In this document: positions 28,274 to 56,746 of the stretch, one piece after another
Layout of the letters: every line of letters begins with the position of its first letter
How positions within the stretch are numbered: the first letter of the stretch is position 1
From: Mesorhizobium tamadayense
Lineage (GTDB): Bacteria; Pseudomonadota; Alphaproteobacteria; Rhizobiales; Rhizobiaceae
Direction of reading: 5' to 3'
NCBI RefSeq assembly: GCF_003863365.1
Contig: NZ_RQXT01000013.1
Location: 62,001-126,000, forward strand
DNA length: 64,000 nt
Position numbers and translations under genes: made by a program
The notes under the pieces: generated by a model
What the model saw: the letters and a program-made list of their open reading frames with translations, nothing else
Told to the model about the DNA's origin: nothing
Database searches by the model: none

Positions 28274-28277
28274 CGGT

Positions 28278-29168: not shown

Positions 29169-29217
29169 GCGCAACTCCCGTGTGGCGTCCCGAGCCATCT
29201 TGCAGCTCAAGTCAGGC

Positions 29218-29238
29218 GTATGATATAGGACATCATAC
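29218..29238. promoter_or_regulatory. perfect inverted repeat GTATGAT-N7-ATCATAC, GntR-type operator candidate
   Basis: A 21-bp palindrome with 7-bp perfect arms is centred in the 112-bp divergent promoter between 29168 and 29281. Size and symmetry match FadR/FCD-type GntR operators, and a GntR/FCD gene ends the minus-strand operon. The binding itself is inferred. Confidence 0.7.
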
Positions 29239-29280
29239 AAATTTCAATGCACCTTCTTCCCGCTGGAGACCGATCACAAA

Positions 29281-30045
29281 ATGCAGGAGCGCGTCAATTC
29301 GCTGAAGGCGGCCACGCAGGCCGGCCGGCCCCATATCGGCATCTGGTGTTCGCTGGCGTCGGCGCTCACCACCGAAGTCATGGCTGGCTCCGGGGCGGGC
29401 TGGTTGCTAGTCGACGGCGAGCACAGCCCGAACGATCTGCGCAGCATCATGGCGCAGTTGCAGGTCGCAGCGGCATTTCCGTGCGAAGCGGTGGTGCGCC
29501 TGCCGTCGGACGATCCCAATCTGATGAAGCAGGCGTTGGACGTCGGCGCCCGCAGCCTGATGATCCCGAACGTGCGGACGGCGCATCAGGCGCGCAGTAT
29601 CGTCGCGGCGATGACCTATGCCCCGGGCGGTTTCCGCGGCTTCTCGGTCGGCCACCGTGCCAACGCATTCGGCCGCATCGCCGGCTATCATGCAAAAGCA
29701 CGCGAGCAGCAGCTGCTGGCTTTGCAGATCGAGGATGAAGCTGCTGTGGCCAATGCGGCTGAGATTGCAGCGGTGGATGGCGTGGACGTCCTGTTCGTCG
29801 GACCGGGCGACCTCTCCACGAACATGGGCGCGATGGGCAACTCCGGCGCCGCGCATGTGCAGGAGGCGATCGCCTCGGTGCGCAAAGCCGCCGCTGCGGC
29901 AGGGAAGGCGAGCGGCATCCTAGCTCCCGCGAAGGCCGATGCGGACCGCTATCTCGCGGACGGCTTCACCATGGTGGCGGTCGGATCCGACCTCGGCCTG
30001 CTGGCGCGAGGCTCCGATGCCCTGATCGCCTCGTTCCACCAGTAG
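29281..30045 (+). CDS. HpcH/HpaI-family class II aldolase (GarL-like)
   Basis: 254 aa, the family's usual length. GIWCSLASALTTEVMAGSGAGWLLVDGEHSPND contains the substrate/metal-region DGEHSPND, MIPNVRTAHQAR the conserved Arg/His part, LQIEDEAAV the metal-binding Glu and VLFVGPGDLSTNMG the metal-binding Asp. Members cleave 4-hydroxy-2-oxo acids (HpaI) or 5-keto-4-deoxyglucarate (GarL) to pyruvate and an aldehyde. It is divergent from a GarR-like reductase and followed after 14 bp by an FAD oxidase. Substrate not proven. Confidence 0.88.
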   Translation: MQERVNSLKAATQAGRPHIGIWCSLASALTTEVMAGSGAGWLLVDGEHSPNDLRSIMAQLQVAAAFPCEAVVRLPSDDPNLMKQALDVGARSLMIPNVRTAHQARSIVAAMTYAPGGFRGFSVGHRANAFGRIAGYHAKAREQQLLALQIEDEAAVANAAEIAAVDGVDVLFVGPGDLSTNMGAMGNSGAAHVQEAIASVRKAAAAAGKASGILAPAKADADRYLADGFTMVAVGSDLGLLARGSDALIASFHQ

Positions 30046-30059
30046 AGCGGAGAACAGCC

Positions 30060-31277
30060 GTGGCGATTCCACCCTACAAAGCACCTTCGCGCAGCGCCTA
30101 TGACGTCGTCATCGTCGGCGGTGCGGTCATCGGCTCCTCGACTGCCTACTGGCTGAGCCAGGCGCTGGGCGACCGCGCCTCGATCCTCGTGGTCGAGCGC
30201 GACTCAAGCTACGAGTTCTCCTCGACCGCGCTCTCCACCAGCGCCATCCGCCAGCAATATTCCAATCCGATCAATGTGAAGATCAGCCAGTTCGGCATCG
30301 AGATCATCCGCGGCTTCCAGGAGCGCATGGCGCCCTTCTACAAGAACGAGCCGGCGCCCGATCTCGGCTTCAAGGAACACGGATATCTCTACTGCTGCTC
30401 GCCCGAAGGCGTGGAAGCGGCCCGGGAGCGGGTCGAATTGCAGCGCAGCCTCGGCGCCCACACCGTCTTCCTCGAGCCGGGTCCGCTGAAGGAGCGCTTC
30501 CCCTGGCTGAATGTCAACGATCTCGGCGGCGGCTCCTGGGGCGCTCGCGAAGAGGGCTGGTTCGATTCCATGGGCCTGCTGAACGGCTTCCGCCGCGCCG
30601 CGCGCGCGAGCGGCGTCGAATATATCGACAATGCCGTGACGGGGCTGGACGTTGCCGATGGGCGGGTCGTCTCGGCCCGCCTCGCAACCGGTCAGACTGT
30701 CGCCTGCGGAACCTTGGTCAATGCCACAGGCCCGAGGGCGCAGCAGGTCGCCGCGATGGCCGGGCTGTCCATCCCGGTCGCGCCCTATAAGCGCTACAGC
30801 TTCGTCTTCGCCAGCGCCAACCCCATCCCAGGCCGCATGCCCAATGTCATCGATCTTTCGGGCACCTTCGTTCGTCCGGAAGGCGAGCTTTTCCTCACCG
30901 GCAACACGCCGCAGGGCGACGGGCCGGCCGACTACGACGACTTCGAAATGCATTTCGAGGAGTTCGACGACTATATCTGGCCGGCGCTGTGGCACCGCAT
31001 TCCGGCCTTTGACGCCCTGAAGGTGCAGACAAGCTGGACCGGTCATTACGAATACAACATGCTCGACCACAACGGCATCGTCGGCTTCCACCCGGAGGTG
31101 ACCAATTTCATGTTCGCCAACGGTTTCTCGGGGCACGGCCTGCAGCAGTCGCCTGCCGTCGGCCGGGCGGTGTCGGAACTGATCGTCCACGGCGCCTTCC
31201 AGACGCTCGACCTGTCGCCGTTTTGTTACGAGCGCATAGAGCGCAATGAGCCGTTCCTGGAAGAAGCGGTGATCTGA
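30060..31277 (+). CDS. FAD-dependent amino-acid/amine oxidoreductase (DAO family)
   Basis: 405 aa from GTG 30060, 14 bp after the aldolase, with a GGAG stretch upstream. YDVVIVGGAVIGSSTAYWLSQAL is the FAD Rossmann motif. The DAO-family C-terminal NGFSGHGLQQSPAVGRAVSELI is present, and residues 60-75 (ALSTSAIRQQYSNPINVKIS) form the substrate/FAD cap. It resembles FOXRED1/sarcosine-dehydrogenase-like and DadA-like enzymes that oxidise secondary or D-amino acids to imino acids. With the aldolase it forms a plus-strand two-gene unit probably under the GntR operator. Confidence 0.87.
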   Translation: MAIPPYKAPSRSAYDVVIVGGAVIGSSTAYWLSQALGDRASILVVERDSSYEFSSTALSTSAIRQQYSNPINVKISQFGIEIIRGFQERMAPFYKNEPAPDLGFKEHGYLYCCSPEGVEAARERVELQRSLGAHTVFLEPGPLKERFPWLNVNDLGGGSWGAREEGWFDSMGLLNGFRRAARASGVEYIDNAVTGLDVADGRVVSARLATGQTVACGTLVNATGPRAQQVAAMAGLSIPVAPYKRYSFVFASANPIPGRMPNVIDLSGTFVRPEGELFLTGNTPQGDGPADYDDFEMHFEEFDDYIWPALWHRIPAFDALKVQTSWTGHYEYNMLDHNGIVGFHPEVTNFMFANGFSGHGLQQSPAVGRAVSELIVHGAFQTLDLSPFCYERIERNEPFLEEAVI

Positions 31278-31369: not shown

Positions 31370-32488
31370 TTAAGCGGCGCGGCTGAAGCGATCGATCCTG
31401 AAATCATCAAGCGGCGTTTCGCAACGGCCGGTCATGATGAGTTCGGCCATGGCGTCGCCCACGCCCGGGCCGATCTGGAAGCCGTGTCCGCTGAAGCCGA
31501 AGGCGTGGAACAGGCCTGGCGTCGTCGCCGAGCGTCCCATGACCGGCAGCATGTCCCGCACATAGCCCTCGCAGCCGGACCAGGTGCGGATGACCGCGAC
31601 CTTTGCGATTGCCGGCAGCAGCCGCGCGACGGCGCGCAACTGCGTCGGCAGGCGCATGGGGTCGGCGGTCGCATGGCCAGGATCTAGATCTACCGGCACC
31701 CTTTCCGCCGCGCCGCCGAAGACGATGTTGCCCCGTTCGACCTGACGCAGATAGGCGCCATGGCCCTTGTCGCGCGTCCAGACGCCGACCACCGGCAGGA
31801 TCCGATGCGGCAGCGGCTCGGTCACGCCCATCTGCGGGCCGCGGGCGTCGAGCGGAACCTCTTCGCCGAACTGCGCGGCGACGCGCGCGCCCCAGGCGCC
31901 GGCGGTGTTGAGCAGGCATTCGGCAGCGAACGAACCCTTTGAACTGGCGACGAGGAACCCGGAGCCGGTGTGTTCGATCGTCTTGACCTCAGTTCCCTCG
32001 ACGATGTCCGCGCCCAGCCTGCGGGCAGCGTCAGCGAAGGCAGGCGCGATCAGCCGTGGGTTGCCGCTGCCGTCGTGCGGCGAGAACGACGCCGCGATCG
32101 CGTCGGGACCGAGGCCGGGAAAACGGGCGCGAATCTCGCTCTGTCCGAGTTCCTCCAGCTCGAGCCCCCAGGGCCGCGCCGCCTCGGCATAAGCCCGCAT
32201 GTCGGTAAGACCGCCTTCATCGAAGATCAGGCGGATGTGACCATGGGCACGAAATTCCACGTCGCGGCCAAGCATCTTCTCGGCCTCGCCCCACAGCTTG
32301 AGTGAGCGGTGGGCCAGCGGAAGCTGGGACAGATGACGCCCCGTGCGCCGGATGTTGCCGAAAGAGGCGACGGTTGCCCCGGTACCGACGCGGTTGCGTT
32401 CGATCAGCGTCACGCGTGCGCCGCGCTTGGCGAGGAAATAGGCCGATGCCGTCCCCATCAGTCCGCCGCCCAGCACGATCACGTCCAT
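31370..32488 (-). CDS. FAD-dependent oxidoreductase (D-amino-acid dehydrogenase/sarcosine-oxidase-like)
   Basis: 372 aa. DVIVLGGGLMGTASAYFLAKRGARVTLIERNRVGTGAT (read as GxGxxG plus the acidic residue ending strand 2) binds FAD. FGNIRRTGRHLSQLPLA lies at the isoalloxazine site, and FHAFGFSGHGFQIGPGVGDAMAELI is the DAO C-terminal FAD motif. Divergent from the LysR gene at 32604, sharing a promoter region with an ATA-N9-TAT box, so it is probably a target of that regulator. Substrate unknown; the neighbouring hydantoinase/oxidase operon suggests a related N-substituted amino acid. Confidence 0.88.
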   Translation of the reverse strand: MDVIVLGGGLMGTASAYFLAKRGARVTLIERNRVGTGATVASFGNIRRTGRHLSQLPLAHRSLKLWGEAEKMLGRDVEFRAHGHIRLIFDEGGLTDMRAYAEAARPWGLELEELGQSEIRARFPGLGPDAIAASFSPHDGSGNPRLIAPAFADAARRLGADIVEGTEVKTIEHTGSGFLVASSKGSFAAECLLNTAGAWGARVAAQFGEEVPLDARGPQMGVTEPLPHRILPVVGVWTRDKGHGAYLRQVERGNIVFGGAAERVPVDLDPGHATADPMRLPTQLRAVARLLPAIAKVAVIRTWSGCEGYVRDMLPVMGRSATTPGLFHAFGFSGHGFQIGPGVGDAMAELIMTGRCETPLDDFRIDRFSRAA

Positions 32489-32577
32489 AGTCGTTCCTTC
32501 AGCTCAGAGCGGCTGATCGTTGATGCGCCATCTTGTTCGCGCCGCGGCATTGCGTCAAAGATGGGTTTGGACAAGAG

Positions 32578-32596
32578 CCATAAGCTTTACCTATGG
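32578..32596. promoter_or_regulatory. LysR-type box (T-N11-A) in the divergent promoter
   Basis: CCATA and TATGG (32578-32582, 32592-32596) form a perfect inverted repeat enclosing ATAAGCTTTACCTAT (32580-32594). The same ATAAGC-N6-TAT layout recurs at 33506-33520. It lies just before the LysR start at 32604, fitting autorepression and control of the divergent oxidase. Binding is inferred. Confidence 0.55.
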
Positions 32597-32603
32597 AGCG
32601 GCA

Positions 32604-33509
32604 ATGCGCGCCCGACAGCTCGAAGTGTTCATCGCCGTCATGCGCGCGGGCACCGTGACAGCCGCGGCGCGGATGCTGAACATCTCCCAGCCCGCCCTGA
32701 GCCAACTGCTGCTTCACGCCGAGGATGAACTGGGCTTCACCCTGTTCGAGCGGGTGAAGGGCCGGCTGCGGCCGACCCCGGAGGCGATCGAGATCTTCCC
32801 CGATGCCGAGAGGCTGTCGGCGGGGCTCGAGGGCTTGCGCCGAAAGACCACCGACCTGCGCCTGGGGCGGGCGGGGCTGGTGCGGGTCGCCGCCTCGCCG
32901 CCGCCGGCCATGGCAATATTACCGCGCGCCTTCACCAAATTCCGGGCGCAGCATCCCAATATATTGCTGCGCTCCAATAGCGCGCCGATCGCCGCGATCA
33001 TCGACATGCTGCGCGCGGGCGATGCCAGCCTCGGCGTGGCGATGGACGACCGCCTGCCTCCCGACATCGAGGCGGAGGTGATCGGGAGTGTTGGGTTCGC
33101 ATGCCTGCTTCCCGCCGGTCACGCGTTGCGAAGGAAGACCGAGCTGACGCTTGCAGACCTCGTTGGAGAAGAGTTGATATCCTATCGCGGCAACACCCGC
33201 CCTGCCGACGAACTGGCTCACGCAGCCCGCGCCCAGGGTGTCACGCTTTCGCTGTCGCTCGAGATCGACGTGTCCATTTCCGCGGCCGGATTCGTCCAGG
33301 CCGGCATGGGTATCGCCCTGGTCGATGCGCTGCTGCCGTGGCACCAGTTTGCCGGGCTCGCCGTCAGGCCGCTCGCGAATGGCCCGGAATTCCCGGTCGC
33401 GCTGCTCACCTCGCGCACACGGGCGCTTTCACGGGCCGACGAGATGATGCGCGATGAAATCCGCGCGGCCTGTTCCACCGTCCTGGATGAACATCGCGCG
33501 AAGGCATAA
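32604..33509 (+). CDS. LysR-family transcriptional regulator
   Basis: 301 aa from ATG 32604 (MRARQLEVFIAVMRAG). The winged helix reads GTVTAAARMLNISQPALSQLLLHAEDELGFTLFERVKGRLRPT; the rest is a LysR effector domain, including GMGIALVDALLPWH. It lies between a divergent FAD oxidase and the same-strand hyuAB-oxidase operon. Both its own promoter and the downstream operon's promoter carry related ATAAGC-N6-TAT boxes, so it probably controls all three units. Confidence 0.92.
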   Translation: MRARQLEVFIAVMRAGTVTAAARMLNISQPALSQLLLHAEDELGFTLFERVKGRLRPTPEAIEIFPDAERLSAGLEGLRRKTTDLRLGRAGLVRVAASPPPAMAILPRAFTKFRAQHPNILLRSNSAPIAAIIDMLRAGDASLGVAMDDRLPPDIEAEVIGSVGFACLLPAGHALRRKTELTLADLVGEELISYRGNTRPADELAHAARAQGVTLSLSLEIDVSISAAGFVQAGMGIALVDALLPWHQFAGLAVRPLANGPEFPVALLTSRTRALSRADEMMRDEIRAACSTVLDEHRAKA

Positions 33510-33598: not shown

Positions 33599-35677
33599 AT
33601 GGATGGTGCCATCGCGGCGGATGAGGCGCGGAACGAAACCGATTGGAAGGTCGGCGTCGATATCGGCGGGACATTCATCGATTTCTGTGCGCTCGAGACC
33701 CGTACCGGACGGCTCGCCTCGCTGAAGGTGCTGACGACGCCGGAAGATCCGGGCGCCGAGCTGATGACGGGTCTCACCATTCTGGCCGAACGCGAAGGCC
33801 TTGATCCTACCCATATGACGCGCTTCGTGCACGGCACGACCGTCGGCATCAATACGATCATCCAGCGCAAGGGCGCGCCGCTCGCGCTGTTCACCAATGC
33901 CGGCTTCGAGGACGTGATCGAACTCGCGCGGCTTCGGATGCCGGACATGTATTCGCTGTTCTGCTCGCGGCCCGACCCGCTGATCTCGCGCGACATGGTC
34001 TTCGGCATTCCGGCTCGCATGCGCGCCGATGGGAATGAATCCCAGGCGCCGGACATGGCGGCCGTCGAGAGGGCGGTCGCGGCGGCGAAAGCGAACGGGG
34101 CGCAAGGGATTATCGTGTCCTTCCTCCATGCCTGGCGCAACGCCGCGCAGGAGGCCTCCGTCAGGGCGGCGATCGCGCGTCTTGCGCCCGACCTCTTCGT
34201 CTTCTCCTCGGCCGAGGTCTGGCCGGTCATCCGCGAATACGAGCGCAGCTCGACCGCCATCCTCAATGGCTATGTCCATCCGCGCGTCTCAGGCTATCTC
34301 ACGGCGCTGGAAGAGCGGCTGAAAGCCCGCGGCGTGCCGGCCCGCCCGATGCTGACGAAATCGAACGGCGGGCTGATGAACGCCGCCGAAGGCAAGCGCG
34401 CCTGCGTGAACATGCTGCTGTCGGGAACGGCCTCCGGGGTCATCGGCGCGTCGTGGCTGGCGCGCCAGGCCGGAGAGGACAAGGTTCTTACCCTCGACAT
34501 CGGCGGGACCTCGGCCGACTTCGCGCTCATCATCGGCGGCGAGCCACAGTTCGGCACCGGCGAGCTTATCGGCGAATTTCCGCTCCATATCCCATCGGTG
34601 TCGGTCAGCTCGATCGGTGTCGGCGGCGGCTCGATCGCCAGCGTCGACGCGCAAGGAGTGCTGCGCGTCGGGCCGGAGTCGGCCGGCTCGACGCCGGGAC
34701 CGGCATGCTACGGCCGTGGCGGCGAGCAAGCGACGGTCACGGACGCCATGGTGGTGTGCGGATGGCTCGGTCATAGCGAGATGGCCTATGGGCAGCTTCG
34801 GATCGATACCCAACTGGCGCATCGCGCGGTCGGAGACCTTGCCGCCAAGCTCGGCCGTCCGGTCGAGCAGGCCGCGCAGGCGATCCTCGGCATCGCGGTG
34901 TCGGAGATGTTCGTCGAGGTCGAGAAGCTCGCCTCGCGCGCCGGCGTGGACTTGCGCGATTTCACGCTGATGCCCTTCGGCGGCGGCGGCCCTATGCTCG
35001 GAGCCTTCCTTGCCCGCGAGCTCGGGATGACGCGCGTCCTGGCGCCGCGCCGCCCCGGCGTGGTGTCGGCGCTGGGCGGACTGGTGGCGGATCTGCGCGG
35101 AGACTTCATCCGCACCATCTTCAGCCCGCTCTCGGGCGCGTCGCTTCCCGCAATCCGCGAGACCTTCGAGGCGCTTGCGCGAGAAGGCCGTGACTGGCTC
35201 GCGGCGCAGGGGCATGATGCGGCGGCGGAACTCAATCTCTCCTGCGACATGCGCTATGTCGGGCAGAGCTATGAGATCGAGGTCGTTCTTTCGCCGGATT
35301 GGCTGTCGGGCGGCAATGTGGCGGCAATCGAGCAAGCCTTCCACCTCACCCATGAGCGGCTCTACGATTTCCACGACCCGGACGGCGAGATCGAGCTTGT
35401 GAACGTCCGGCTGTCGGTCGTCGGCGCGGGTCCGGCGCTCTCCTTCCCAGAGATCGACGAGATAGAGGTTCCGGTCGTTCCGGCGCGGCGGCTGCCGGTC
35501 TATACGGGCCTCGGCGTCGAGACCGTCGACCTCCACGACCGGCAGAGCCTCGTGCCGGGCAGCACATTTCATGGGCCTGCCGTGGTCGTTCAGGAAGACA
35601 CCACCTTTGCCATTCCCGCGGGAGCGCAGGCACGGGTCGACCGCCATCTCAACCTTCTGCTGACCTTCGCGGAGTGA
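33599..35677 (+). CDS. hyuA: hydantoinase A / 5-oxoprolinase family subunit (second copy)
   Basis: 692 aa from ATG 33599 with AGGAAGGG upstream; an in-frame TTG 27 bases earlier is less likely. KVGVDIGGTFIDFCALE (17-33) is the nucleotide-binding loop, VHGTTVGINTIIQRKGA, TLDIGGTSADFALI and STPGPACYGRGGE the other ATPase and family motifs. It is only distantly similar to the copy at 13484, so the two probably act on different substrates. First gene of a four-gene plus-strand operon with hyuB and an opine-oxidase-like pair. Confidence 0.9.
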   Translation: MDGAIAADEARNETDWKVGVDIGGTFIDFCALETRTGRLASLKVLTTPEDPGAELMTGLTILAEREGLDPTHMTRFVHGTTVGINTIIQRKGAPLALFTNAGFEDVIELARLRMPDMYSLFCSRPDPLISRDMVFGIPARMRADGNESQAPDMAAVERAVAAAKANGAQGIIVSFLHAWRNAAQEASVRAAIARLAPDLFVFSSAEVWPVIREYERSSTAILNGYVHPRVSGYLTALEERLKARGVPARPMLTKSNGGLMNAAEGKRACVNMLLSGTASGVIGASWLARQAGEDKVLTLDIGGTSADFALIIGGEPQFGTGELIGEFPLHIPSVSVSSIGVGGGSIASVDAQGVLRVGPESAGSTPGPACYGRGGEQATVTDAMVVCGWLGHSEMAYGQLRIDTQLAHRAVGDLAAKLGRPVEQAAQAILGIAVSEMFVEVEKLASRAGVDLRDFTLMPFGGGGPMLGAFLARELGMTRVLAPRRPGVVSALGGLVADLRGDFIRTIFSPLSGASLPAIRETFEALAREGRDWLAAQGHDAAAELNLSCDMRYVGQSYEIEVVLSPDWLSGGNVAAIEQAFHLTHERLYDFHDPDGEIELVNVRLSVVGAGPALSFPEIDEIEVPVVPARRLPVYTGLGVETVDLHDRQSLVPGSTFHGPAVVVQEDTTFAIPAGAQARVDRHLNLLLTFAE

Positions 35678-37668
35678 CTGCCTTGTTCGACCGGACAAAC
35701 CTGCAGGTTCTCGCAAACCATGCCCGCGCGGCCGCCGAGAACATGGCCCACACGCTGCACCGCACCGCGCATTCCGCCTTCGTCAAGGAGACGCAGGACT
35801 TCACGGTGATGCTTATGGACCGTTCAGGAGCGACCTTCGCCGTCCCGATGGAGCTCGGCGCCACTTGGTACCCGGGGCTTTCCTATCAGCGCGCGATCGC
35901 GATGGTGGGCGACTACCGGCCGGGGGACGTTGCCTTCACCAACGATCCCTATTCGGGCCACGTCGCCACGCACGCGCCCGACACGCATCTGTGGAAGCCG
36001 GTCTTCGTCGACGGCGAGATCGTCGCCTGGACCGGAGGGCACATCCACAACACCGACATGGGCGGGGCGGTGCCGGCTTCGCTTAGCCGGGCGCTGACCG
36101 AAATCCACCAGGAAGGCATTCGGTTTCCGCCCATGAAGCTGGTGAGGGAGGGCGTCTTCGACGAGACGATCCTGCGGATCATGAGCACCAACGTGCGCAA
36201 GCCCGACCTCAACATTGGCGACATCAAGGCGCTGGTTGGCGCGCTCAACACAGGCGAGCGCAAGGTCCAGGCGATGGTGAGGAAGTTCGGCAAGGCCGGC
36301 TTCATCGAAGGCGTGGCCGCGCTTCTCGACCATGCCGAAGCGCAGGCGCGCGATGTGCTGCGCTCCATGCCCGACGGCACATGGGAATTCGCCGACTATG
36401 CCGACGAGGATTCGGTCGAGGCCAATCCCTGCCGGCTGAAGCTGACGTTGACGATCAGGGGTGACGAGGCGGTGCTCGACTTCACCGGCTCCGATCCGCA
36501 GCTCGGCTCCTCGCTCAACGTGCCTTCGGGTGGCGACCCGCGCCACACCATGCTGCTGGTGGGCGTCTACTACGTGCTCTACACGCTCAACCCGAAGATC
36601 CTGCTCAACACGGGCCTCACCCGACCCTTCATCTGCATCACGCCTCAAGGATCGGTGCTGAACCCGGTCCACCCCGCCGCTGTGGGCATGCGCTCGCTGA
36701 CCTGCGCCCGGCTGCGATCGGTCATCTTCGGCGCCTTCTCGCAGGCAGTGCCGGAGCGGCTGCCGGCGGCTCCGGCCGGCAACAACTGCATCCTCAACGT
36801 CATGACCACCGACGAGCGCACCAGCCGGAGCGTGATCGCGGCGGTGAACCCGGTGGTGGGCGGCGGCGGCGCGATGCCCCATCGCGACGGGACCAACGGC
36901 TCGGGCGCCGATGCCGCCTATCTCAAGAACACGCCGATCGAGATCACCGAGACCGAGACCCCTGTCGAGTTTGTGAAATACGGGCTTGCGAAGGACAGCG
37001 GCGGCGCGGGCCGCTGGCGCGGCGGGTTGGCGACCGAGATGGCGTTCCGCGTCTTTGCCCCGGACTCCAGGATCACGGCGCGCAACCGCGACCGCAGTTT
37101 CTTTCGTCCCTGGGGCGTGCTGGGCGGCAAGGCGGCCGGCCTGTCGGATATGGTCGTCAATCCGGGGACCGAGCACGAGCGGCGGTTGGGCAACATCGAC
37201 ACGGCGGTGCTGCAGCCCGGCGATGTGCTCGAAATCCGCTCCGCCGGGGGAGGGGGACGCGGCGATCCGCATGAACGCGAGCCCTGGCGTGTCGCGCAGG
37301 ATGTGCGGCGTGGCTATGTCTCGCCGATAGCTGCCGAGCGTGACTATGGCGTCGTCATCCGCGGCGGCGAGATTGATGCGCAGGCGACGGAACGGCTGCG
37401 CGCGTCGCAGCAACCGCCCCCCGGCCATTTCCATTTCGGTCCGGAGCGCGAGAGCTACGAAGCGCAGTGGACCCCGGCCGCCTATGACCGGCTCCACGCA
37501 GTGCTGGACGCCTTGCCGATCCACTGGCGGTTCTTCGCCAAGACGGAAATCTTCCGCCGCATGAAGGGGCGCTCCGGGCCGGACGGTGTCCAGGCGGCCT
37601 TCGATGCAGTCTGCCAACGCTTCCCCGAATTGCCTCGTCCTCGCCCGGTGCGAGAGGCCGCGGAATGA
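35674..37668 (+). CDS. hyuB: hydantoinase B / 5-oxoprolinase family subunit with C-terminal extension
   Basis: 664 aa from GTG 35674, overlapping the hyuA stop by 4 bp (GTGA). Core motifs: NHARAAAENMAHTLHRTAHSAFVKE (in parts), NDPYSGHVATHAPD, GGHIHNTDMGG with a metal-type His pair, and SAGGGGRGDP near residue 530. The usual HyuB ends about there; here about 130 further residues follow, including HFGPERESYEAQW and IHWRFFAKTEIFRRM, absent from the copy at 11853. The extension may contact the downstream oxidase subunits or mark a distinct HyuB class. Its stop overlaps the ferredoxin-like gene by 4 bp. Confidence 0.9.
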   Translation: MTALFDRTNLQVLANHARAAAENMAHTLHRTAHSAFVKETQDFTVMLMDRSGATFAVPMELGATWYPGLSYQRAIAMVGDYRPGDVAFTNDPYSGHVATHAPDTHLWKPVFVDGEIVAWTGGHIHNTDMGGAVPASLSRALTEIHQEGIRFPPMKLVREGVFDETILRIMSTNVRKPDLNIGDIKALVGALNTGERKVQAMVRKFGKAGFIEGVAALLDHAEAQARDVLRSMPDGTWEFADYADEDSVEANPCRLKLTLTIRGDEAVLDFTGSDPQLGSSLNVPSGGDPRHTMLLVGVYYVLYTLNPKILLNTGLTRPFICITPQGSVLNPVHPAAVGMRSLTCARLRSVIFGAFSQAVPERLPAAPAGNNCILNVMTTDERTSRSVIAAVNPVVGGGGAMPHRDGTNGSGADAAYLKNTPIEITETETPVEFVKYGLAKDSGGAGRWRGGLATEMAFRVFAPDSRITARNRDRSFFRPWGVLGGKAAGLSDMVVNPGTEHERRLGNIDTAVLQPGDVLEIRSAGGGGRGDPHEREPWRVAQDVRRGYVSPIAAERDYGVVIRGGEIDAQATERLRASQQPPPGHFHFGPERESYEAQWTPAAYDRLHAVLDALPIHWRFFAKTEIFRRMKGRSGPDGVQAAFDAVCQRFPELPRPRPVREAAE

Positions 37669-37967
37669 TCACGGCCGGCCGTATCGTCCGGCTGGCCGAG
37701 CGCGACCGGGCACAGGTGCAGTTCTTTCTCGACGGTGAGATGCGTCGCGCGCTGGCGGGCGACACCGTGCTGACCGCCATGCTGGCGTCGGAGCAAGCCT
37801 TGCGAAGGTCCGAGTTCGGACCCGAGCCGCGTGCCGGTTTCTGCCTGATGGGAGCGTGCCAGGATTGCTGGGTGTGGCAGGAGGAAGGACCGCGCCTGCG
37901 GGCGTGTTCGACCCCTGTCACCGAAGGTATGCGGTTACGCACGACGCAGCCGGAGAGCTGGCCATGA
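37665..37967 (+). CDS. [2Fe-2S] ferredoxin-like subunit of an opine/amine oxidase (HcnA-like)
   Basis: 100 aa, ferredoxin fold. Cys60, Cys65, Cys68 and Cys81 give the pattern C-x4-C-x2-C-x12-C of plant-type [2Fe-2S] proteins, in GFCLMGACQDCWV and RACST. The small size and position before an FAD subunit match HcnA and the small subunits of bacterial opine oxidases and hydroxyproline/proline dehydrogenases. Start and stop overlap neighbours by 4 bp (ATGA), implying equimolar synthesis. It probably relays electrons between FAD sites at the membrane. Confidence 0.88.
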   Translation: MITAGRIVRLAERDRAQVQFFLDGEMRRALAGDTVLTAMLASEQALRRSEFGPEPRAGFCLMGACQDCWVWQEEGPRLRACSTPVTEGMRLRTTQPESWP

Positions 37968-39331
37968 GCGAGACCTCGTCGCCGCGGATCGTGATCGTTG
38001 GAGCCGGCCCCGCCGGCATAAGGGCCGCCGTGACGCTGATCGAAGCCGGACTGCATCCGGTGGTGATCGACGAAGGGCATAGCGCGGGAGGGCAGATTTA
38101 TCGCCGGCCGCCTGCCGGGTTCATCCGCACGCCGGAACAGCTCTACGCCTCGGAGGCCGCGAAGGCGCGCGCGCTGCATGCGCACTTCGATCGGCTGGCA
38201 GAAGAGAGGCGGCTCACTTATTGCGCACGCAGCTCCGTCATCGCCACGCACGGGGGTCGGCTGCACGTGCTGGGGGAGGGCGGCGTGCAAGTGATCGGCT
38301 ATGACCGCCTGATCCTTGCCACCGGCGCGGCCGACCGCGTCGCCCCGGTCCCCGGCTGGCAGAGCGCCGGCGTCTACAGCCTTGGCGCGGCGCAGATCGC
38401 GCTGAAGGCGCAGGGCGTGGCGCTCGGGCGGCGGATCGTCCTGATGGGATCGGGACCTTTACTGACGCTGGTCGGCGCGCAGCTCCTCAAGGCTGGAGCG
38501 GATGTGGCGGCAGTGCTCGACACCTCCCCCTGGCGTCAGCAGATGCGGGGGCTCTGGCAGCTTGCCGCCCGTCCGATCGTCGCGTTGCGCGGCCTGGCCC
38601 TGCGGGCGAGGCTCGGCGGCCGCTATCATGCAGGCGTGGCGCTCGAGCTGATCGAAGCCGACGGATCGGGTGTCACGGCGCTGCGCTGGCGCGATGCCGG
38701 CGGCCGGCAGCGCCTCACTCCATGCGACATGGTCGGCATGGGCTGGCACCTGCGGGCGGAGACGCATCTGGCCGACCTCGCGGGTTGCGCCTTCACCTAT
38801 GACGAGCAGTGGCGGCAATGGCTGCCGAAGACCGACCTGATGGGGCGGGCCGGCAACGGCGTCTATCTCGCGGGCGACGGGGTGCGTCTGCTTGGGGCGG
38901 ACGGCGCGGAGATCGCGGGACGCCTTGCCGCGGCGGCGTGCCTTGCCGATCTCGGACGTCCGGCGCCCTCGTTGAGCGCCGATCTGCGCAAGCTCGCGCG
39001 GCTCGAGCGCTTTGCCCGCGGTCTGGCTTGCGCCTTTCCCTGGCCGTCCCAGATGGTGCGCGCACTCCCTGACGACGCGATCGTCTGCCGCTGCGAGAAC
39101 GTGACTGCCGGGGCCGTGCGCGAGAGCGCGGATTTCGGCGGCGGCGAGGCCAACAGAGTGAAATCGCTCGCACGCGTCGGCATGGGGCGGTGCCAAGGGC
39201 GCTATTGTCAGTTGGCGGCCGTCGAACTGGTCGCGGCGCAGGCCGGCTGCGCGCCCGGCGCTGTCGGTCGGTTCCGCGGGCAGGCTCCGGTCCGACCGGC
39301 GCCTATCGGCGCCTTTCTTGGGAAAGGCTGA
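37964..39331 (+). CDS. FAD/[2Fe-2S] oxidoreductase subunit (opine oxidase A / HcnB-like)
   Basis: 455 aa from ATG 37964; the longer frame upstream overlaps the ferredoxin gene. IVIVGAGPAGIRAAVTLIEAG is the FAD motif, VVIDEGHSAGGQIYRRP the typical HcnB/OoxA/NoxA loop, and VLMGSGPLLTLVGAQLL a second nucleotide-binding motif. Near the C-terminus Cys375-x-Cys377 and Cys410-x4-Cys415 (CRCENVT, GRCQGRYC) form a BFD-like [2Fe-2S] site. In opine oxidases this subunit works with a DadA-like catalytic subunit; a candidate lies just downstream on the opposite strand. Confidence 0.9.
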   Translation: MSETSSPRIVIVGAGPAGIRAAVTLIEAGLHPVVIDEGHSAGGQIYRRPPAGFIRTPEQLYASEAAKARALHAHFDRLAEERRLTYCARSSVIATHGGRLHVLGEGGVQVIGYDRLILATGAADRVAPVPGWQSAGVYSLGAAQIALKAQGVALGRRIVLMGSGPLLTLVGAQLLKAGADVAAVLDTSPWRQQMRGLWQLAARPIVALRGLALRARLGGRYHAGVALELIEADGSGVTALRWRDAGGRQRLTPCDMVGMGWHLRAETHLADLAGCAFTYDEQWRQWLPKTDLMGRAGNGVYLAGDGVRLLGADGAEIAGRLAAAACLADLGRPAPSLSADLRKLARLERFARGLACAFPWPSQMVRALPDDAIVCRCENVTAGAVRESADFGGGEANRVKSLARVGMGRCQGRYCQLAAVELVAAQAGCAPGAVGRFRGQAPVRPAPIGAFLGKG

Positions 39332-39381
39332 TGCGATTGCGTGGACCACACTCGCCAACGGATGCCGGGATCCGTCGCACT

Positions 39382-40707
39382 CTAGAAATCGGCGACCTTC
39401 CCCCATGCCGAAGCGTCGAAGCGCCGCGGATCGTAAGATTGCGGGTCGACGATCGGTTCCGATCCGGTCACCAGATCGGCGACGAGATGCCCGGCGCCGG
39501 GCCCGATGCCGAAGCCGTGTCCCGAAAATCCGGCAGCCAGGAAGAAACCCGGAACGGTGTGGACCTCGCCGATGGCAGGCACGCCGTCCGGCGTGCTGTC
39601 GATGTAGCCGGCCCAGGCCGCGCTGATCGTTGTTTCGCGCAGGGCGGGCAGCAGCTCGATCGCCCGGGCGTGGGTCAGGCGTATGGTCGCCCGGTCCGGG
39701 GCAGGATCGAGGATGCGCATGCGCTCCATCGGCGTCGGCCGGTCGAGCCGCCAGCGTCGGAGCGTTTCGTGGCCCGAGCGCATGCCTTGCAGCCCGCCCG
39801 GCGCGAGGCTTCGCCAGCGCTTCAGGAACATGGGCAGGAACTGCGAGGAGAAGCGCAGCTGCTGCGGGGTCACGTCCACGCGCCCGCGTCCGCTAATGGC
39901 GAGCGTGTAGCCGCCGTCGCCGCGACGCGTGGCCGAGATTCGTGCCGTGTGCAGTGCATCGGGCAGTCCCTCGGCGCCGGGCGAGACCGACAGGATGGAG
40001 GAGCGGATCGACGCCTGCGGAAAGCGGAAACCGAACTGATGGCAAAAGGAGGACGCCCAGGCGCCGCCGGCCAGCACCGCCGCCTTGGTCCGGATCGTCC
40101 CGCTTTCCGTGACCACGGCGCTCAGGCGCCCGCCCTCGGTCTCGATACCGCGCGCGGCGCAATCCTGGTGCACCGTCCCCCCGAGCGTGAGGATGGCGCG
40201 GGCGACCGCAGGCGCGGCCCGCGACGGATCGGCGGTGCCGTCGCTCGGCGAGAAAACACCGCCCTTCCAGGTCCGGCCGGTGGCGCGGCCGCGCTCGCTG
40301 GCCTCGGCGCTGTCGAGCATATGCGTGGTCACGCCGGCCGTCCTGGCGAATTCACGCCAGCGCGCCCAGCCGGCCAGTTCCGCCTCGTCATTGCTGAGAT
40401 AGAGCAGGCCGCAGCGGCGAAAGCCCGTGTCCTCGCCGGTTTCGGCCGCAAGGCGCTCCCACAGGTCGAGGCTTCGGGTCGACATCGGCAATTCGCGGGC
40501 GTCGCGATTCTGCTGGCGGCACCATCCCCAGTTCCTGCTGGACTGCTCGGCGCCGATGCGTCCCTTTTCGACAAGCGCGACCTTCATGCCGCGCCTCGCC
40601 AGGTAATATGCGGCGAAGACACCTACGATGCCGCCGCCGATCACCACCGCGTCCGCGGATTGCGGCAATTCTTCGGACGTCTCGATTTGCTGGAGCGGCG
40701 CGCGCAT
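39382..40707 (-). CDS. FAD-dependent amino-acid oxidase/dehydrogenase (DadA / opine oxidase B / HcnC-like)
   Basis: 441 aa from ATG 40707 (AGAGAAG upstream). DAVVIGGGIVGVFAAYYLARRG is the FAD motif, QSSRNWGWCRQQNRDARELP lies at the flavin site, and FLAAGFSGHGFGIGPGAGHLVADLV is the DAO C-terminus. It is convergent with the HcnB-like subunit (50 bp apart), so the likely third subunit of the complex is transcribed separately under the Lrp-type regulator at 40929. The expected reaction is oxidation of an opine, secondary amine or imino acid to a 2-oxo acid plus amine. Confidence 0.88.
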   Translation of the reverse strand: MRAPLQQIETSEELPQSADAVVIGGGIVGVFAAYYLARRGMKVALVEKGRIGAEQSSRNWGWCRQQNRDARELPMSTRSLDLWERLAAETGEDTGFRRCGLLYLSNDEAELAGWARWREFARTAGVTTHMLDSAEASERGRATGRTWKGGVFSPSDGTADPSRAAPAVARAILTLGGTVHQDCAARGIETEGGRLSAVVTESGTIRTKAAVLAGGAWASSFCHQFGFRFPQASIRSSILSVSPGAEGLPDALHTARISATRRGDGGYTLAISGRGRVDVTPQQLRFSSQFLPMFLKRWRSLAPGGLQGMRSGHETLRRWRLDRPTPMERMRILDPAPDRATIRLTHARAIELLPALRETTISAAWAGYIDSTPDGVPAIGEVHTVPGFFLAAGFSGHGFGIGPGAGHLVADLVTGSEPIVDPQSYDPRRFDASAWGKVADF

Positions 40708-40791: not shown

Positions 40792-40887
40792 GAAGCTCGG
40801 TCGAAATCGGGAGCCGCTGCGTTTCAAATGGGTCCGCTCGGATGGACAGACCGGCAGGCCGTGGTACTGTCGATGCTCGTTGGCAAG

Positions 40888-40904
40888 ACAGCATTTTGTG
40901 CTGT
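40888..40904. promoter_or_regulatory. Lrp-type box 2 (ACAGCA-TTTTG-TGCTGT)
   Basis: A perfect 6-bp-arm inverted repeat whose inner 15 bases match 13 of 15 positions of the Lrp consensus. It lies 25-40 bp before the Lrp/AsnC start, a position suited to autorepression. Confidence 0.6.
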
Positions 40905-40928
40905 GGCGTGCTTTCTCTGGAGATGGCC

Positions 40929-41405
40929 GTGAAACTGGATCGGATCGACATCAAGATTCTCTACGAACTGCAGAAGAACGGCCGCGTCACCAACGTGGAA
41001 TTGGCAGAGCTGGTGCATCTGTCGCCGAGCCCGTGCCTGATGCGGGTCAAGAAACTCCAGTCGGAGGGCTACATCGAGGGCTATTCGGCGCAGGTCAATC
41101 TCGGCAAGCTCGGCCAGACGCTGACCGTGTTCACCGAAATCACCTTGAAGAACCATCGCCAGGTGGACTTCGCCCGCTTTCTCGCGGTCGTTGAGAAGAT
41201 CGACCAGGTCATCGAATGCCACCTCGTGTCGGGCGGCTACGACTATTTGATGAAATTCGTGACCGCCGGGATCGGCGAGTACCAGACCATCATGGAGCGG
41301 CTGACCGACATGGATATCGGCATCGACAAGTATTTCAGCTTCGTGGTGCTGAAGTCTCCCATCGTCAAGGCGCACATGCCCCTGCCCAGCCTGTTTCCGA
41401 TGTGA
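40929..41405 (+). CDS. Lrp/AsnC-family transcriptional regulator
   Basis: 158 aa from GTG 40929, chosen because GGAG lies 6 bases before it; an in-frame ATG at 40923 is too close to that site. IDIKILYELQKNGRVTNVELAELVHLSPSPCLMRVKKLQ is the AsnC helix-turn-helix; the C-terminal RAM domain includes VIECHLVSGGYDYLMKFVTAGI, the effector-binding turn. It is divergent from a DadA/HcnC-like oxidase, the classical arrangement for a specific activator of amino-acid catabolism (as in BkdR or PutR). Two near-consensus boxes lie between the genes. Confidence 0.93.
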   Translation: MKLDRIDIKILYELQKNGRVTNVELAELVHLSPSPCLMRVKKLQSEGYIEGYSAQVNLGKLGQTLTVFTEITLKNHRQVDFARFLAVVEKIDQVIECHLVSGGYDYLMKFVTAGIGEYQTIMERLTDMDIGIDKYFSFVVLKSPIVKAHMPLPSLFPM

Positions 41406-41525: not shown

Positions 41526-43177
<1,652 letters not shown>

Positions 43178-43181
<4 letters not shown>

Positions 43182-44029
43182 GCGTTCCGGTCCCTGATCT
43201 TCTGCGGCAGGTTGTCGATCAGCAGGTTGATGCTGATGGTGAGGCTGGCGATCGCCAGCGAAGGCACGATGACGGCGGGGGCCGCGAAGGGCAGGCCGCC
43301 GATGTTCTCGCGCACCAGCGCGCCCCAGTCGGCGAGCGGCGGCTGGAGGCCGAGCCCAAGGAAGGACAGGCCGGAGAGCAAAAGCACGATGAAGACGAAG
43401 CGCAGGCCGAAGTCGGCCAGCACGGGCCGGATGATATTGGGCAGGATTTCGGACCCGATGAGATAAACGGTGCTTTCGCCGCGGACGCGGGCGACGGTCA
43501 TGAAGTCCATGGTGTTGATGTTGACGGCAAGCGCCCGCGTAAAGCGGTAGGCGCCCGGGATATAGATGACGGCGAGCGTCAGGATCAGCACCGGGATCGA
43601 GGAACCGACCGCCGCAACCACGACAAGGCCGAACAGCTTGCTGGGAATCGAGGTCATGGCGTCCAGGAAGCGGCTGAGGCAGGTGTCGAGCCAGCCGCCG
43701 GTGACGGCCGCTGTCATTCCCAGCACGACGCCGGAAAAGCAGGCGATGGAGACGGCGGCGAGCGATATGCCGACGGTGTAGCGCGCGCCCATCAGGACCC
43801 GCGAAAGCATATCGCGACCCAGATAGTCAGAGCCGAGCCACAGTCCCTGGCGCATTGGCCCGAAATAGTCGTCGTCGACGATGTTGCCGATCGGATGGGG
43901 AACGATGTAAGGCGCGAAGATGGCGATGAGCGTCCACGCCAGGATGACCAGCGAGGCCGCCACGCCCACGAGGTTGTAGCTGTGGCCCAGGAAGGACCGT
44001 CGGGAGGATGCCGCGCGGACCATTGTCAT
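43178..44029 (-). CDS. Opp/Dpp-type ABC transporter permease (DppC-like)
   Basis: 283 aa from ATG 44029 (MTMVRAASSRRSF), overlapping the DppB-like stop by 4 bp. The N-terminal helix (VVASLVILAWTLIAIFAPYIV region), the DppC landmark GSDYLGRDMLSRVLMGARYTVGISL, and the cytoplasmic EAA loop TVARVRGESTVYLIGSEILPNIIRP identify the family. The frame stays open upstream but overlaps the neighbouring permease. Confidence 0.93.
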
Positions 44030-44976
44030 CTGAGCCTCGGGTTGGACATGATGGCGACGATGTCGGCGGCCGTTATGAGGAAGAGATAGCCGAGGCAGAA
44101 GATCATCGCGCAGCTTTGGATCAGCGGCAGGTCGCGGGTCGCGACCGCATCGACCATCAGCTTGGCGATGCCGGGATAGTTGAAGATCGTCTCCACAATG
44201 ATGACGCCGCCAACCAGATAGGACAGCGAGAGCGCGACCGCGTTGACGATCGGCCCGAGCGCGTTGGGAAGTGCGTGCCTGAACACCATGCGGCTGCGCG
44301 AGGCGCCCTTGAGAAGGGCCATCTCGACATAGGGCGTGGAGAGTGTTTCGATCACCGCGGCGCGGGTCATGCGGATCATCTGGGCGGAGATGACGAAGAT
44401 GAGCGTGATCACCGGCATCGCGTAGATGCGCACGAGGTCGGCAAGCGAATGCGCTTCGTTGACCGAGGACAGCGCCGGCAGCCATTTGAGATAGACTGCG
44501 AACACCAGGACCGCCAGCGTCGCGACCATGAACTCCGGCACGGAGATGACCCCGATCGAAAGGATGGTGACGGTGCGGTCGTAGAGGGAGCCGCGCAACA
44601 TCGCGGCGGTGATGCCGAGCGTCAGGGCCAGCGGCACCGATAGCAGGGTGGTGATGCCGGCGAGCTTCACGGTGTTCAGCAGGCGCCCGCCGATCAGCGC
44701 CGCGACCGGCATGTCGTTGGCATAGGATGTACCGAGGTCGCCGTGGAGCAGGCCGAGAAGCCAGCGCAGGAAACGCAGGATCGCCGGATCGTTGAGATGC
44801 ATGGCCTCGCGCAGGCCGGCGACCGCCTCAGGCGTCGCCGCCTGGCCGAGCAACATTGACGCGGTGTCGCCGGGCAGCATGCTGGTGGCGAAAAACACGG
44901 CGAACAGGACGATTAGAAGGGTGACGGCCGCGACCGCCAGCCGCTTCAGCACGAGGTTGAAAACCCCAGACTTCAT
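44026..44976 (-). CDS. Opp/Dpp-type ABC transporter permease (DppB-like)
   Basis: 316 aa from ATG 44976, with AGGGAGCG upstream. VLKRLAVAAVTLLIVLFAVFFATSMLPGD is the typical DppB N-terminus, followed by HGDLGTSYANDMPVAALI and the EAA loop VEMALLKGASRSRMVFRHALPNALGPI. It starts 88 bp after the binding-protein stop and is coupled to the second permease. Confidence 0.93.
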   Translation of the reverse strand: MKSGVFNLVLKRLAVAAVTLLIVLFAVFFATSMLPGDTASMLLGQAATPEAVAGLREAMHLNDPAILRFLRWLLGLLHGDLGTSYANDMPVAALIGGRLLNTVKLAGITTLLSVPLALTLGITAAMLRGSLYDRTVTILSIGVISVPEFMVATLAVLVFAVYLKWLPALSSVNEAHSLADLVRIYAMPVITLIFVISAQMIRMTRAAVIETLSTPYVEMALLKGASRSRMVFRHALPNALGPIVNAVALSLSYLVGGVIIVETIFNYPGIAKLMVDAVATRDLPLIQSCAMIFCLGYLFLITAADIVAIMSNPRLR

Positions 44977-45064
44977 GGAAGCGCTCCCTGCGGTTGCGTT
45001 TGGCCGAACAATCTTGCGCAATGCAGTGCCGGGGGCCGGCTGACCGGTCCCCGGCAAGCGCCTC

Positions 45065-46675
45065 TTAGGCTTCGAGCCAGAGGTATTCCGCCATTGCGTA
45101 GCCCATCATGCCACCGAGCGGGTTCGGCTCCAAACCCTTCACCTTGCTGGAGAGGGCATCGACGTTGGAAATATAGGCCGGGATGATGGTGCCGGCCTCC
45201 TCGGAGACCATGGTCTGCATTACGCCATAGATTTCCTTGCGCTTGGCCTGGTCGAGCGAGCCGCGCGCCTCGACGAGCAGCTTGTCGAACTTCTCCGACT
45301 TGTACTGGCTTTCATTCCAGGGCGCGTTGGAGGCGTAGAGGAGCGAGAACAGGATGTCCGGCGTCGGGCGCGGATTGATGTTGCCGAAATGGACCGGGGC
45401 TTTGAGCCAGTAATTGTCCCAGTAGCCGTCGGACGGGACGCGCTGGACGTCTAGCTTCATGCCGATATCCGCACCGGCGGCCTGGATGATCACCGCCATG
45501 TCGATCGACGAAGTCGCGGCGTCGGAGGCGACCACGGGGATGGACTGGCCGAGCAGACCCGCCTTCTGGAAGTGGAACTTCGCCTTGTCCGGGTCGAAAG
45601 CCTTCGGCTTGAGGTCGGCATTGTGGAAGATATTCGCGGGCGAGACAGGCTGGTCGTTGCCGATTTCGCCGAGGCCGCGCAATGCCGATTTCACGATCTG
45701 CTCGCGGTTGACGAGATACTTCATGCCGGCCACGAAGTCGGCCTTGCTGCCCGGGTCCATGTCGAGCCGGATGTTGAGGTCCGTGTAATTGCCTGAGGTC
45801 GTCTTCGACAGTTCGAAACCTTGCTGGCCTGCGATGAGCTTCATGGCGCGCGGATTGATCGCGGCCGCCAGATTGATGTCGCCGGAAAGCAGGGCGTTCA
45901 CCCGGGCGCTATCGTCGCTGATGGCGATGAATTCGAAGGAGTCGAGATAGGGTTTGCCCGACTTCCAGTAGTTCTTGTTCTTGGTGACGACCGAACGAAC
46001 GCCCGGTTCGAACGTCTCAAGCACAAAGGCTCCCGTGCCATTGCCCTTGGAGAAGTCGGTGGTGCCGTCGGCCACGATCAAGAAGTGGTGCAGCGACAGG
46101 ATGGTCGGGAGGTCGGCATTCGGATCGGCGAGCGTGATTTCGACGGTCGACTTGTCGAGCGCCTTGAAGCCGGTCATCTGCGCGGCGATCTTGGCGACCT
46201 TGGAGCCGACAGATTTGTCGAGATGCCGCTTCAGCGAGAAGATCACGTCGTCGGCGGTGAGGTCCTTGCCGTCGTGGAAGGTGACGCCTTTGCGCAGCTT
46301 CACGGTCCAGGTCTTGGCGTCCTTACTGTCGAAGCTTTCGGCCAGCTCCATCTGCGTGACGCCCTCCTTGTCGAGGAAAGTCAGGCGATTGTAGAGCGAG
46401 CAGCAGCGGACATAGTCGGTGGAGAGCGACGCCTTTGCCGGATCGAGCGTATCGGCGGTCGAGGACGACCAGCCGGCGGCCTTGAAGTTCCCACCGGACA
46501 CGGGTGTGGCGGCGACGGCCTGCGTGGCACGGCCGAGCACCATGCTGCCCGCGGCAACCGCGGCGCCGCCGGCCAGCAGCATCTTGAGGAGCTCGCGGCG
46601 GCTCGCGCCCCGCCGAATGGCGTTCTCGACCATGGCATCGTCTGCTCCGGTCCAGTTCGTGATCTTGTCGGTCAT
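45065..46675 (-). CDS. Opp/Dpp-type ABC transporter substrate-binding protein with Tat signal
   Basis: 536 aa, SBP family 5. A twin-arginine signal SRRELLKMLLAGG (Arg26-Arg27) with cleavage near AVA-A (about residue 56) indicates export of the folded protein by Tat. WTVKLRKGVTFHDGKDLTADDVIFSLKRH is the family signature. A long pre-Tat N-region of 24 residues is unusual but seen in rhizobial members. First gene of the transporter operon; the HAD gene upstream ends 64 bp before it on the same strand and may be co-transcribed. The family binds peptides, opines, nickel or plant compounds, so the ligand is open. Confidence 0.93.
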   Translation of the reverse strand: MTDKITNWTGADDAMVENAIRRGASRRELLKMLLAGGAAVAAGSMVLGRATQAVAATPVSGGNFKAAGWSSSTADTLDPAKASLSTDYVRCCSLYNRLTFLDKEGVTQMELAESFDSKDAKTWTVKLRKGVTFHDGKDLTADDVIFSLKRHLDKSVGSKVAKIAAQMTGFKALDKSTVEITLADPNADLPTILSLHHFLIVADGTTDFSKGNGTGAFVLETFEPGVRSVVTKNKNYWKSGKPYLDSFEFIAISDDSARVNALLSGDINLAAAINPRAMKLIAGQQGFELSKTTSGNYTDLNIRLDMDPGSKADFVAGMKYLVNREQIVKSALRGLGEIGNDQPVSPANIFHNADLKPKAFDPDKAKFHFQKAGLLGQSIPVVASDAATSSIDMAVIIQAAGADIGMKLDVQRVPSDGYWDNYWLKAPVHFGNINPRPTPDILFSLLYASNAPWNESQYKSEKFDKLLVEARGSLDQAKRKEIYGVMQTMVSEEAGTIIPAYISNVDALSSKVKGLEPNPLGGMMGYAMAEYLWLEA

Positions 46676-50914: not shown

Positions 50915-50930
50915 AACAGGCGGATTGCCG

Positions 50931-54758: not shown

Positions 54759-54768
54759 CGGCATCTCT

Positions 54769-56723: not shown

Positions 56724-56746
56724 GGGATGGCCTTTTCGCTTGGGTT

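Follow-up and report, generated by a model that had tools for sequence, protein, structure and literature searches.

HyuAB genes overlapping those of OdhABC-type flavin dehydrogenase subunits in a predicted catabolic island of Mesorhizobium tamadayense

Introduction

Why should the genes of a hydantoinase/oxoprolinase-type enzyme run directly into those of a flavin dehydrogenase? This question is raised by a stretch of 64,000 nucleotides (hereafter, the window) from the 7.53 Mb genome of Mesorhizobium tamadayense (assembly GCF_003863365.1, contig NZ_RQXT01000013.1, positions 62,001 to 126,000), in which hyuA and hyuB, together with the genes for gamma- and alpha-type subunits of a dehydrogenase of the OdhABC type that follow them, occupy 33599-39331. 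The original prediction, made from the letters of this DNA, was that HyuAB opens a cyclic amide or lactam and that the resulting N-substituted amino acid is oxidised by the dehydrogenase. We analysed the gene set, its third subunit, its neighbourhood and its distribution; publications are cited by their PMC numbers, and G and L numbers are our handles for genomes and loci. The labels hcnB, hcnC, PuuB, LAAD and Dpp were likewise chosen in this analysis.

The overlapping gene set and its conservation

HyuAB and the gamma (fer2) and alpha (hcnB) subunits of an OdhABC-type flavin dehydrogenase are encoded in one overlapping gene set. At each of its three junctions, hyuA/hyuB, hyuB/fer2 and fer2/hcnB, the overlap is 4 bp, and the coordinates agree here with the original prediction, which had described such overlaps between hyuA, hyuB and the genes of a 100-amino acid [2Fe-2S] protein and an FAD/BFD protein.

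To follow the set in other bacteria, we used the best 80 of 317 HyuB relatives (the near clade; HyuB identity 81-95%), which come from Mesorhizobium, Rhizobium, Neorhizobium, Bosea, Azospirillum, Phyllobacterium, Paracoccus and other genera. The best named matches are Mesorhizobium proteins with 95% identity, in a search that may omit the window's own genome. Since fer2 and hcnB are both present at all 80 loci, the gene set is not a product of chance. When the window is added to these loci, 77 of 81 cases show both the hyuB/fer2 overlap of 4 bp and the gamma motif, and 75 of the 81 have this overlap together with the fer2/hcnB overlap and the GxGxxG and BFD motifs; the hyuA/hyuB overlap, scored by a loose test, is kept in 42 only. 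The LysR regulator gene directly upstream of hyuA, which had no place in the original prediction, probably starts at 32604, as we read it from the family match, and at 48 of 79 loci it sits between hyuA and the putative beta gene considered below.

Active-site motifs

Numbered from the longer frame start at 33572, HyuA has DIGGT at 30 and 309 and GSTPGP at 372, which correspond to both phosphate motifs (DxGGT twice) and to the adenosine motif GxxPGP described for caprolactamase (PMC8453981). The Asp-His-Asp-His metal site of HyuB is represented by D42, H100, D103 and H125, and its ligands are present in all 85 aligned rows (81 from the clade plus L087, L090, L094 and L095); alanine mutants in the same residues of caprolactamase are inactive (PMC8453981). 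These motifs support the view that the ATP and metal sites expected of a lactamase are intact in HyuA and HyuB. The tested motifs are common to CapAB, 5-oxoprolinase and hydantoinase, whereas the scores of the window's proteins fall far under the caprolactamase equivalog cut-offs in NCBIfam (426.4 of 1000 and 244.2 of 1000 bits). The best Protein Data Bank (PDB) match of HyuB is N-methylhydantoinase.

The gamma subunit has its cysteines in the order C-X4-C-X2-C-X12-C, which fits the published C-X4-C-X2-C-X11-12-C. In the alpha subunit, which is 35% identical to NoxA of Ti plasmids, GxGxxG is realised as GAGPAG at 13, and the BFD cysteines form C-X-C-X32-C-X4-C, as compared with a spacing of X15-20 printed in PMC4575208. 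Because the spacing on Ti plasmids is similar to that of the window (X33 in NoxA, X32 in SacG), this difference probably does not speak against an OdhABC identity. The alpha protein also has Pfam matches to BFD and SO_alpha_A3. Both proteins resemble subunits of an opine-dehydrogenase-like enzyme, which supports their earlier assignment as the opine-oxidase type.

The third subunit

The third (beta) subunit is very probably encoded at 31370-32488, divergently from lysR-hyuA. The best PDB match of this protein in phmmer is 1y56_B (E 1.2e-43, 153 bits; NoxB gave 94 bits in blastp, a different program); it has GGGLMG at 7, corresponding to GxGxxG, and R-T-W at the place aligned with 1y56_B. Chain B is named "sarcosine oxidase" in its PDB file, and we take 1y56 to be the L-proline dehydrogenase of P. 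horikoshii. In OdhABC, D-hydroxyproline dehydrogenase and L-proline dehydrogenase, the beta subunit is characterised by GxGxxG and by R-x-W for FMN (PMC4575208).

The original prediction had placed the third subunit in the gene on the other strand at 39382-40707, beside an Lrp-type regulator. Both of these genes are present and the former does belong to the DAO family, but its role as a subunit is very improbable, although it is adjacent, occurs at 67 of 80 loci (by tblastn, the count used here; 50 of 80 by complete open frames) and matches 1y56_B with E 9.1e-45. This last value, the fourth match of the 39382 protein, is about as good as that of the 31370 protein; the score is therefore not decisive, and the choice is made by motif and synteny. 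In an alignment, RxW is shared by the 31370 protein, NoxB and SacE, and 1y56_B has it too, as opposed to AAW in the 39382 protein, the best PDB match of which is an L-amino acid deaminase (E 2.3e-53). Among 88 loci scanned, RxW was found in 86 of 86 readable orthologues of the former and AxW in 56 of 56 readable orthologues of the latter. The 31370 gene is present at 79 of 80 loci, the one miss (L073) being a contig of 6.8 kb, while the 39382 gene is absent at 13; of these 13 loci, 12 retain the 31370 gene. Among the loci without the 39382 gene, hyuB of L010 and of L073 is flanked on one side or both by less than 3 kb, and in L071 the sequence to the right extends for 3.1 kb; seven Azospirillum loci (L046, L048, L056, L058, L069, L078 and L080) keep beta and lack the 39382 gene with 10 kb available on both sides. 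Finally, a tandem fer2-hcnB-hcnC order, with beta directly behind alpha, occurs in Paraburkholderia (L090) and in G514 (L153). The RxW motif, the presence at 79 of 80 loci and this tandem order argue for 31370-32488 as beta. The 39382-40707 candidate was rejected for want of R-x-W, for its LAAD relationship and for its absence at 13 of 80 loci, and very probably represents a separate linked enzyme.

The catabolic island

The HyuAB/OdhABC genes are linked to those of a Dpp-type transporter, a class-III aminotransferase, a succinate-semialdehyde dehydrogenase (SSADH), an aldehyde dehydrogenase (ALDH) and a tartrate/D-malate dehydrogenase (TTC), which together form an island at about 31.4-59.9 kb of the window (Table 1). 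The PDB relatives of the aminotransferase include the aspartate aminotransferase family and polyamine:pyruvate transaminase, and we read it as an omega-type enzyme.

Table 1. Genes of the HyuAB/OdhABC set and of the surrounding island (positions in the window)
Feature	Position	Strand	Basis or remark
Beta (catalytic, FAD) subunit, OdhABC-type (very probable)	31370-32488	-	1y56_B match, R-T-W, synteny
LysR regulator (open reading frame)	32520-33509	+	Pfam HTH_1, LysR_substrate
hyuA, ATP-binding subunit	33599-35677	+	Pfam Hydant_A_N, Hydantoinase_A, Hydant_A_C
hyuB, metal-site subunit	35674-37668	+	Pfam Hydantoinase_B
Gamma subunit (fer2), [2Fe-2S], 100 amino acids	37665-37967	+	Pfam Fer2_4; cysteine motif
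Alpha subunit (hcnB), FAD + BFD [2Fe-2S]	37964-39331	+	Pfam Pyr_redox_2, Fer2_BFD, SO_alpha_A3; ATG at 37964
LAAD-like FAD oxidase, DAO family	39382-40707	-	Best PDB match L-amino acid deaminase; AAW motif
Lrp/AsnC-type regulator	40842-41405	+	Divergent from 39382 gene; at 66/80 loci
ABC transporter double ATPase, Dpp type	41526-43181	-	By eye, synteny
ABC permease, DppC-like	43178-44083	-	By eye; start guessed, open frame continues to 44485
ABC permease, DppB-like	44026-45057	-	By eye; at 49/80 loci
SBP_bac_5 solute-binding protein	45065-46675	-	26% to SacA-like protein of L095
HAD-like hydrolase	46740-47462	-	By eye; no NCBIfam match at E 1e-30 or better
Class-III aminotransferase	47701-49074	-	PRK05965 above cut-off
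GNAT acetyltransferase	49089-49928	-	54% to P. denitrificans
Haloacid dehalogenase type II	50246-50914	+	NCBIfam above cut-off
PuuB-like FAD amine oxidase	50925-52205	+	Best NCBIfam L-pipecolate oxidase, below cut-off; 69% to P. denitrificans
SSADH	52240-53697	-	TIGR01780 above cut-off
TTC	53715-54764	-	TIGR02089 above cut-off
ALDH	54769-56232	-	Orthologues near hyuB
Cupin_3 protein	56371-56772	-	
GhrA-like 2-hydroxyacid dehydrogenase	56747-57670	-	Below cut-off
ArgE-like M20 deacylase	57684-58832	-	TIGR01892 above cut-off
Second GNAT-like protein	58766-59947	+	Start uncertain; family by eye

The linkage was followed in 12 genomes of seven genera that have a HyuB orthologue, with distances computed from coordinates. 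An orthologue of TTC lies at most 22 kb from hyuB in 10 of them (in G426 the distance is 409 kb, and none was found at 1e-120 in G410), and one of ALDH at most 23 kb away in 11, with G426 (408 kb) as the exception. The 80 loci reach 10 kb from hyuB, and within this distance ALDH is present at 16 and TTC at 8; more distant copies were looked for in the 12 genomes only.

A similar row of genes is found in P. denitrificans PD1222: argE, GNAT, hyuA (52%), hyuB (51%), LysR, ALDH (70%), TTC (78%) and SSADH, and further HAD, PuuB-like (69%), cupin (69%), GNAT (54%) and aminotransferase. OdhABC was not found in this 20-kb stretch, and S. fredii (L093) and the genomes G490 and G524 have a HyuAB island like that of P. 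denitrificans, again without OdhABC in the stretch. G514 represents the reverse case, with OdhABC accompanied by Dpp, TTC, SSADH, PuuB-like, cupin and ArgE-like genes; a close HyuAB is absent there, and the search at 1e-60 gave only HyuB paralogues of 30-31% identity elsewhere in the genome. P. denitrificans and S. fredii, compared with G514, thus indicate that HyuAB and OdhABC each join one downstream set and are separable.

The genes to the left of 31370 (aroE-like, 3-hydroxyisobutyrate dehydrogenase-like, HpaI aldolase and the DAO gene at 30060-31277) were found at none of the 80 loci at an identity of at least 50%, and for this reason we excluded them from the island. Outside this left edge lie the DAO oxidase gene (30060-31277, + strand) and genes at 29281-30045 (+) and 27461-29240 (-), which are probably not island members. 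At the other end, 60001-63051 holds a LysR gene and a gene for a 675-amino acid OYE/FAD enzyme, which recurs in the neighbourhood of hyuB at 18 of the 80 loci. Among the PDB relatives of this enzyme are 2,4-dienoyl-CoA reductase and trimethylamine dehydrogenase, and it possibly provides a further step.

Relation to known systems

The coupling of ring opening to oxidation, which the original prediction had held to be undescribed, is already in print as an idea. A publication of 2019 (PMC6733357) reports hyuA/hyuB in the succinamopine region of pTiEU6, and also in the nopaline region, beside Nox-type dehydrogenase genes, and suggests that hyuAB opens lactam opines; a like idea was expressed for rideopine lactam (PMC8554961), and nmpAB together with nmpC were listed for N-methylpyrrolidone (PMC6987047). 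Some plasmids are without hyuA/hyuB genes (PMC10410297). Nopaline and pyronopaline are placed on one pathway and interconvert spontaneously according to PMC4192606, in the available part of which hydantoinase is not mentioned. The shared operon and the island were not met in the literature searched, which took in few subscription papers.

On Agrobacterium Ti plasmids, the catabolic regions with hyuAB near noxB-noxC-noxA (nopaline) or sac genes likewise combine HyuAB with a LysR regulator, an ABC transporter and, encoded on the opposite strand, a Nox-type dehydrogenase of alpha, beta and gamma subunits. In the nopaline-type region (L094), hyuAB directly faces the noxB-2Fe2S-noxA set; in L095, whose gene order agrees with that published for the sac region, hyuAB is separated from the dehydrogenase set by a LysR gene and a gene for a binding protein. 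However, identity to the window's proteins is 33-35% for HyuB, 35% for NoxA and 30% for NoxB, the Ti plasmid HyuB forms a branch apart from the window's HyuB clade, and the dehydrogenase genes stand in a row of their own, whereas in the window gamma and alpha directly follow hyuB. The genes annotated in the 20-kb stretches L094 and L095 also include no ALDH, TTC or SSADH. On the HyuB tree, which covers 52 of 112 HyuB proteins and has several long branches, four changes of the OdhABC label are required, in our reading three gains and one loss; L136-L138, two of which are on short contigs, carry no label. Such repeated pairing of HyuAB with Nox-type dehydrogenases supports a functional coupling.

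For N-methylpyrrolidone, the primary paper is said to deal with Alicycliphilus BQ1. The nmpABCDEF genes, according to PMC6987047, likewise comprise an N-methylhydantoin amidohydrolase (nmpA/nmpB), an amino acid oxidase (nmpC) and an SSADH (nmpF), and an nmpB mutant loses N-methylpyrrolidone degradation (PMC12866759); the likeness is by description only, and the oxidase is listed as a single gene, as opposed to three subunits here. With OdhABC itself (Watanabe 2015, PMC4575208), the window has in common three subunits, overlapping genes and the gamma and beta motifs, while the gene order differs.

A second Nox-like opine dehydrogenase set was observed directly behind hyuAB-fer2-hcnB at about 13.1-17 kb of L150 (G584); it consists of noxA (40%), noxC (41%), noxB (41%) and another beta-like gene (34%).

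Proposed pathway and alternative explanations

We consider it rather probable that ring opening and C-N oxidation are part of the catabolic island, with HyuAB opening a lactam and OdhABC then oxidising the product. In this proposal, drawn from the genes, the transporter would import an N-substituted cyclic amide, and HyuAB would spend ATP to hydrolyse the N-substituted lactam, giving a secondary amino acid whose C-N bond OdhABC would oxidise via FAD, FMN and [2Fe-2S]. The imine so formed would split, yielding an oxo acid plus a primary amino acid. By way of the aminotransferase or an amine oxidase, and then of SSADH/ALDH and TTC, a (hydroxy)succinate-type product may reach central metabolism; the occurrence of TTC in the island suggests a 2-hydroxysuccinate-type intermediate. 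We infer both the order of the steps, ring opening before C-N dehydrogenation, and the substrate, for which a gamma-lactam is our guess. Gamma-amino-beta-hydroxybutyric acid (GABOB)/4-hydroxy-2-pyrrolidone, phytosiderophores and pyroglutamate-type opines were considered as possible substrates.

The pairing on which this proposal is based was surveyed at two taxonomic levels. HyuB was found at E 1e-200 or better in 18 of 297 genomes of the family, in 12 of them with at least 77% identity, and in 11 of these 12 an alpha match follows 300-490 bp downstream; in the other six (HyuB 50-53%), no alpha gene was found at 1e-120. At the class level, 7 of 289 genomes, the window's own included, have HyuB at 1e-150, three of them at 64-69%.

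Several observations weigh against successive action of the two enzymes. The twelfth genome (G410, L135) keeps hyuAB and beta while the adjacent gamma and alpha are gone, and its sole alpha-like gene at E 1e-30, 35% identical, is found at a distance of about 12 kb. In G087, G071 and G122, the gene for the 64-69% HyuB showed no hcnB next to it, with about 14.8, 1.7 and 0.2 kb of contig, respectively, left downstream, and among 18 sister-clade HyuB loci hcnB occurs at one (L090). As G514 possesses OdhABC without a close HyuAB, each partner also occurs apart, and the two need not act in series. Moreover, the amine step could instead be catalysed by the aminotransferase or by the PuuB-like or LAAD-like oxidase, and the family names fit lactam, hydantoin or imide substrates alike. 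From the single sister locus and the absence of hcnB at the 64-69% HyuB it follows that the pairing characterises a single clade plus a few further cases rather than HyuB in general. The co-occurrence expected in the original prediction is therefore the rule in the near clade (80 of 80 loci, 11 of 12 genomes) and rare outside of it (1 of 18). As a separate observation, the distant alpha homologue of G410 may represent an exchange of subunits.

An explanation that we regard as unlikely on balance is a shared regulon with parallel steps, in which HyuAB and OdhABC would each attack separate compounds of one family and converge on aminotransferase, SSADH and TTC without handing over a product. It agrees with the occurrence of HyuAB alone with the downstream genes in L087, L093, L144 and L147 and of OdhABC alone in L153. 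Against it, the genes overlap in the clade of the window and stay together there at 80 of 80 loci. An improbable alternative is a hydantoin/creatinine-type route, by which HyuAB would open an N-substituted hydantoin, an M20 carbamoylase would free the N-alkyl amino acid (e.g., sarcosine) and OdhABC would oxidise it. N-methylhydantoinase as the best PDB match of HyuB and the M20 enzyme of the island are consistent with this route; however, that enzyme scores above the cut-off as an acetylornithine deacetylase, and the route has no need for SSADH, TTC or the aminotransferase.

A wider form of the lactam proposal is possible, if rather doubtful. It supposes that a natural gamma-lactam, N-substituted and perhaps hydroxylated, is degraded by a dedicated pathway that is widespread among rhizobia, Azospirillum, Bosea and marine Rhodobacterales. 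The enzymes of ATP-driven ring opening and of C-N dehydrogenation would be co-translated and work as one unit; these two steps, followed by transamination, SSADH/ALDH and D-malate dehydrogenase, would lead to succinate and pyruvate by an uncharted route. If HyuAB and OdhABC do act in succession, the Ti plasmid proposal, that HyuAB opens lactam opines before their oxidation, would gain a clean non-tumour system for genetic tests, with a better-supported third subunit named for it. A conserved catabolic island is also marked in rhizobia, azospirilla and marine bacteria.

Further HyuA and HyuB genes

The window contains a second HyuA/HyuB pair (11853-16084, - strand), whose HyuB is 28% identical to the first and which adjoins an aminotransferase-like gene, recognised by eye, at 10654-11856. 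In the whole genome, there are six HyuA matches.

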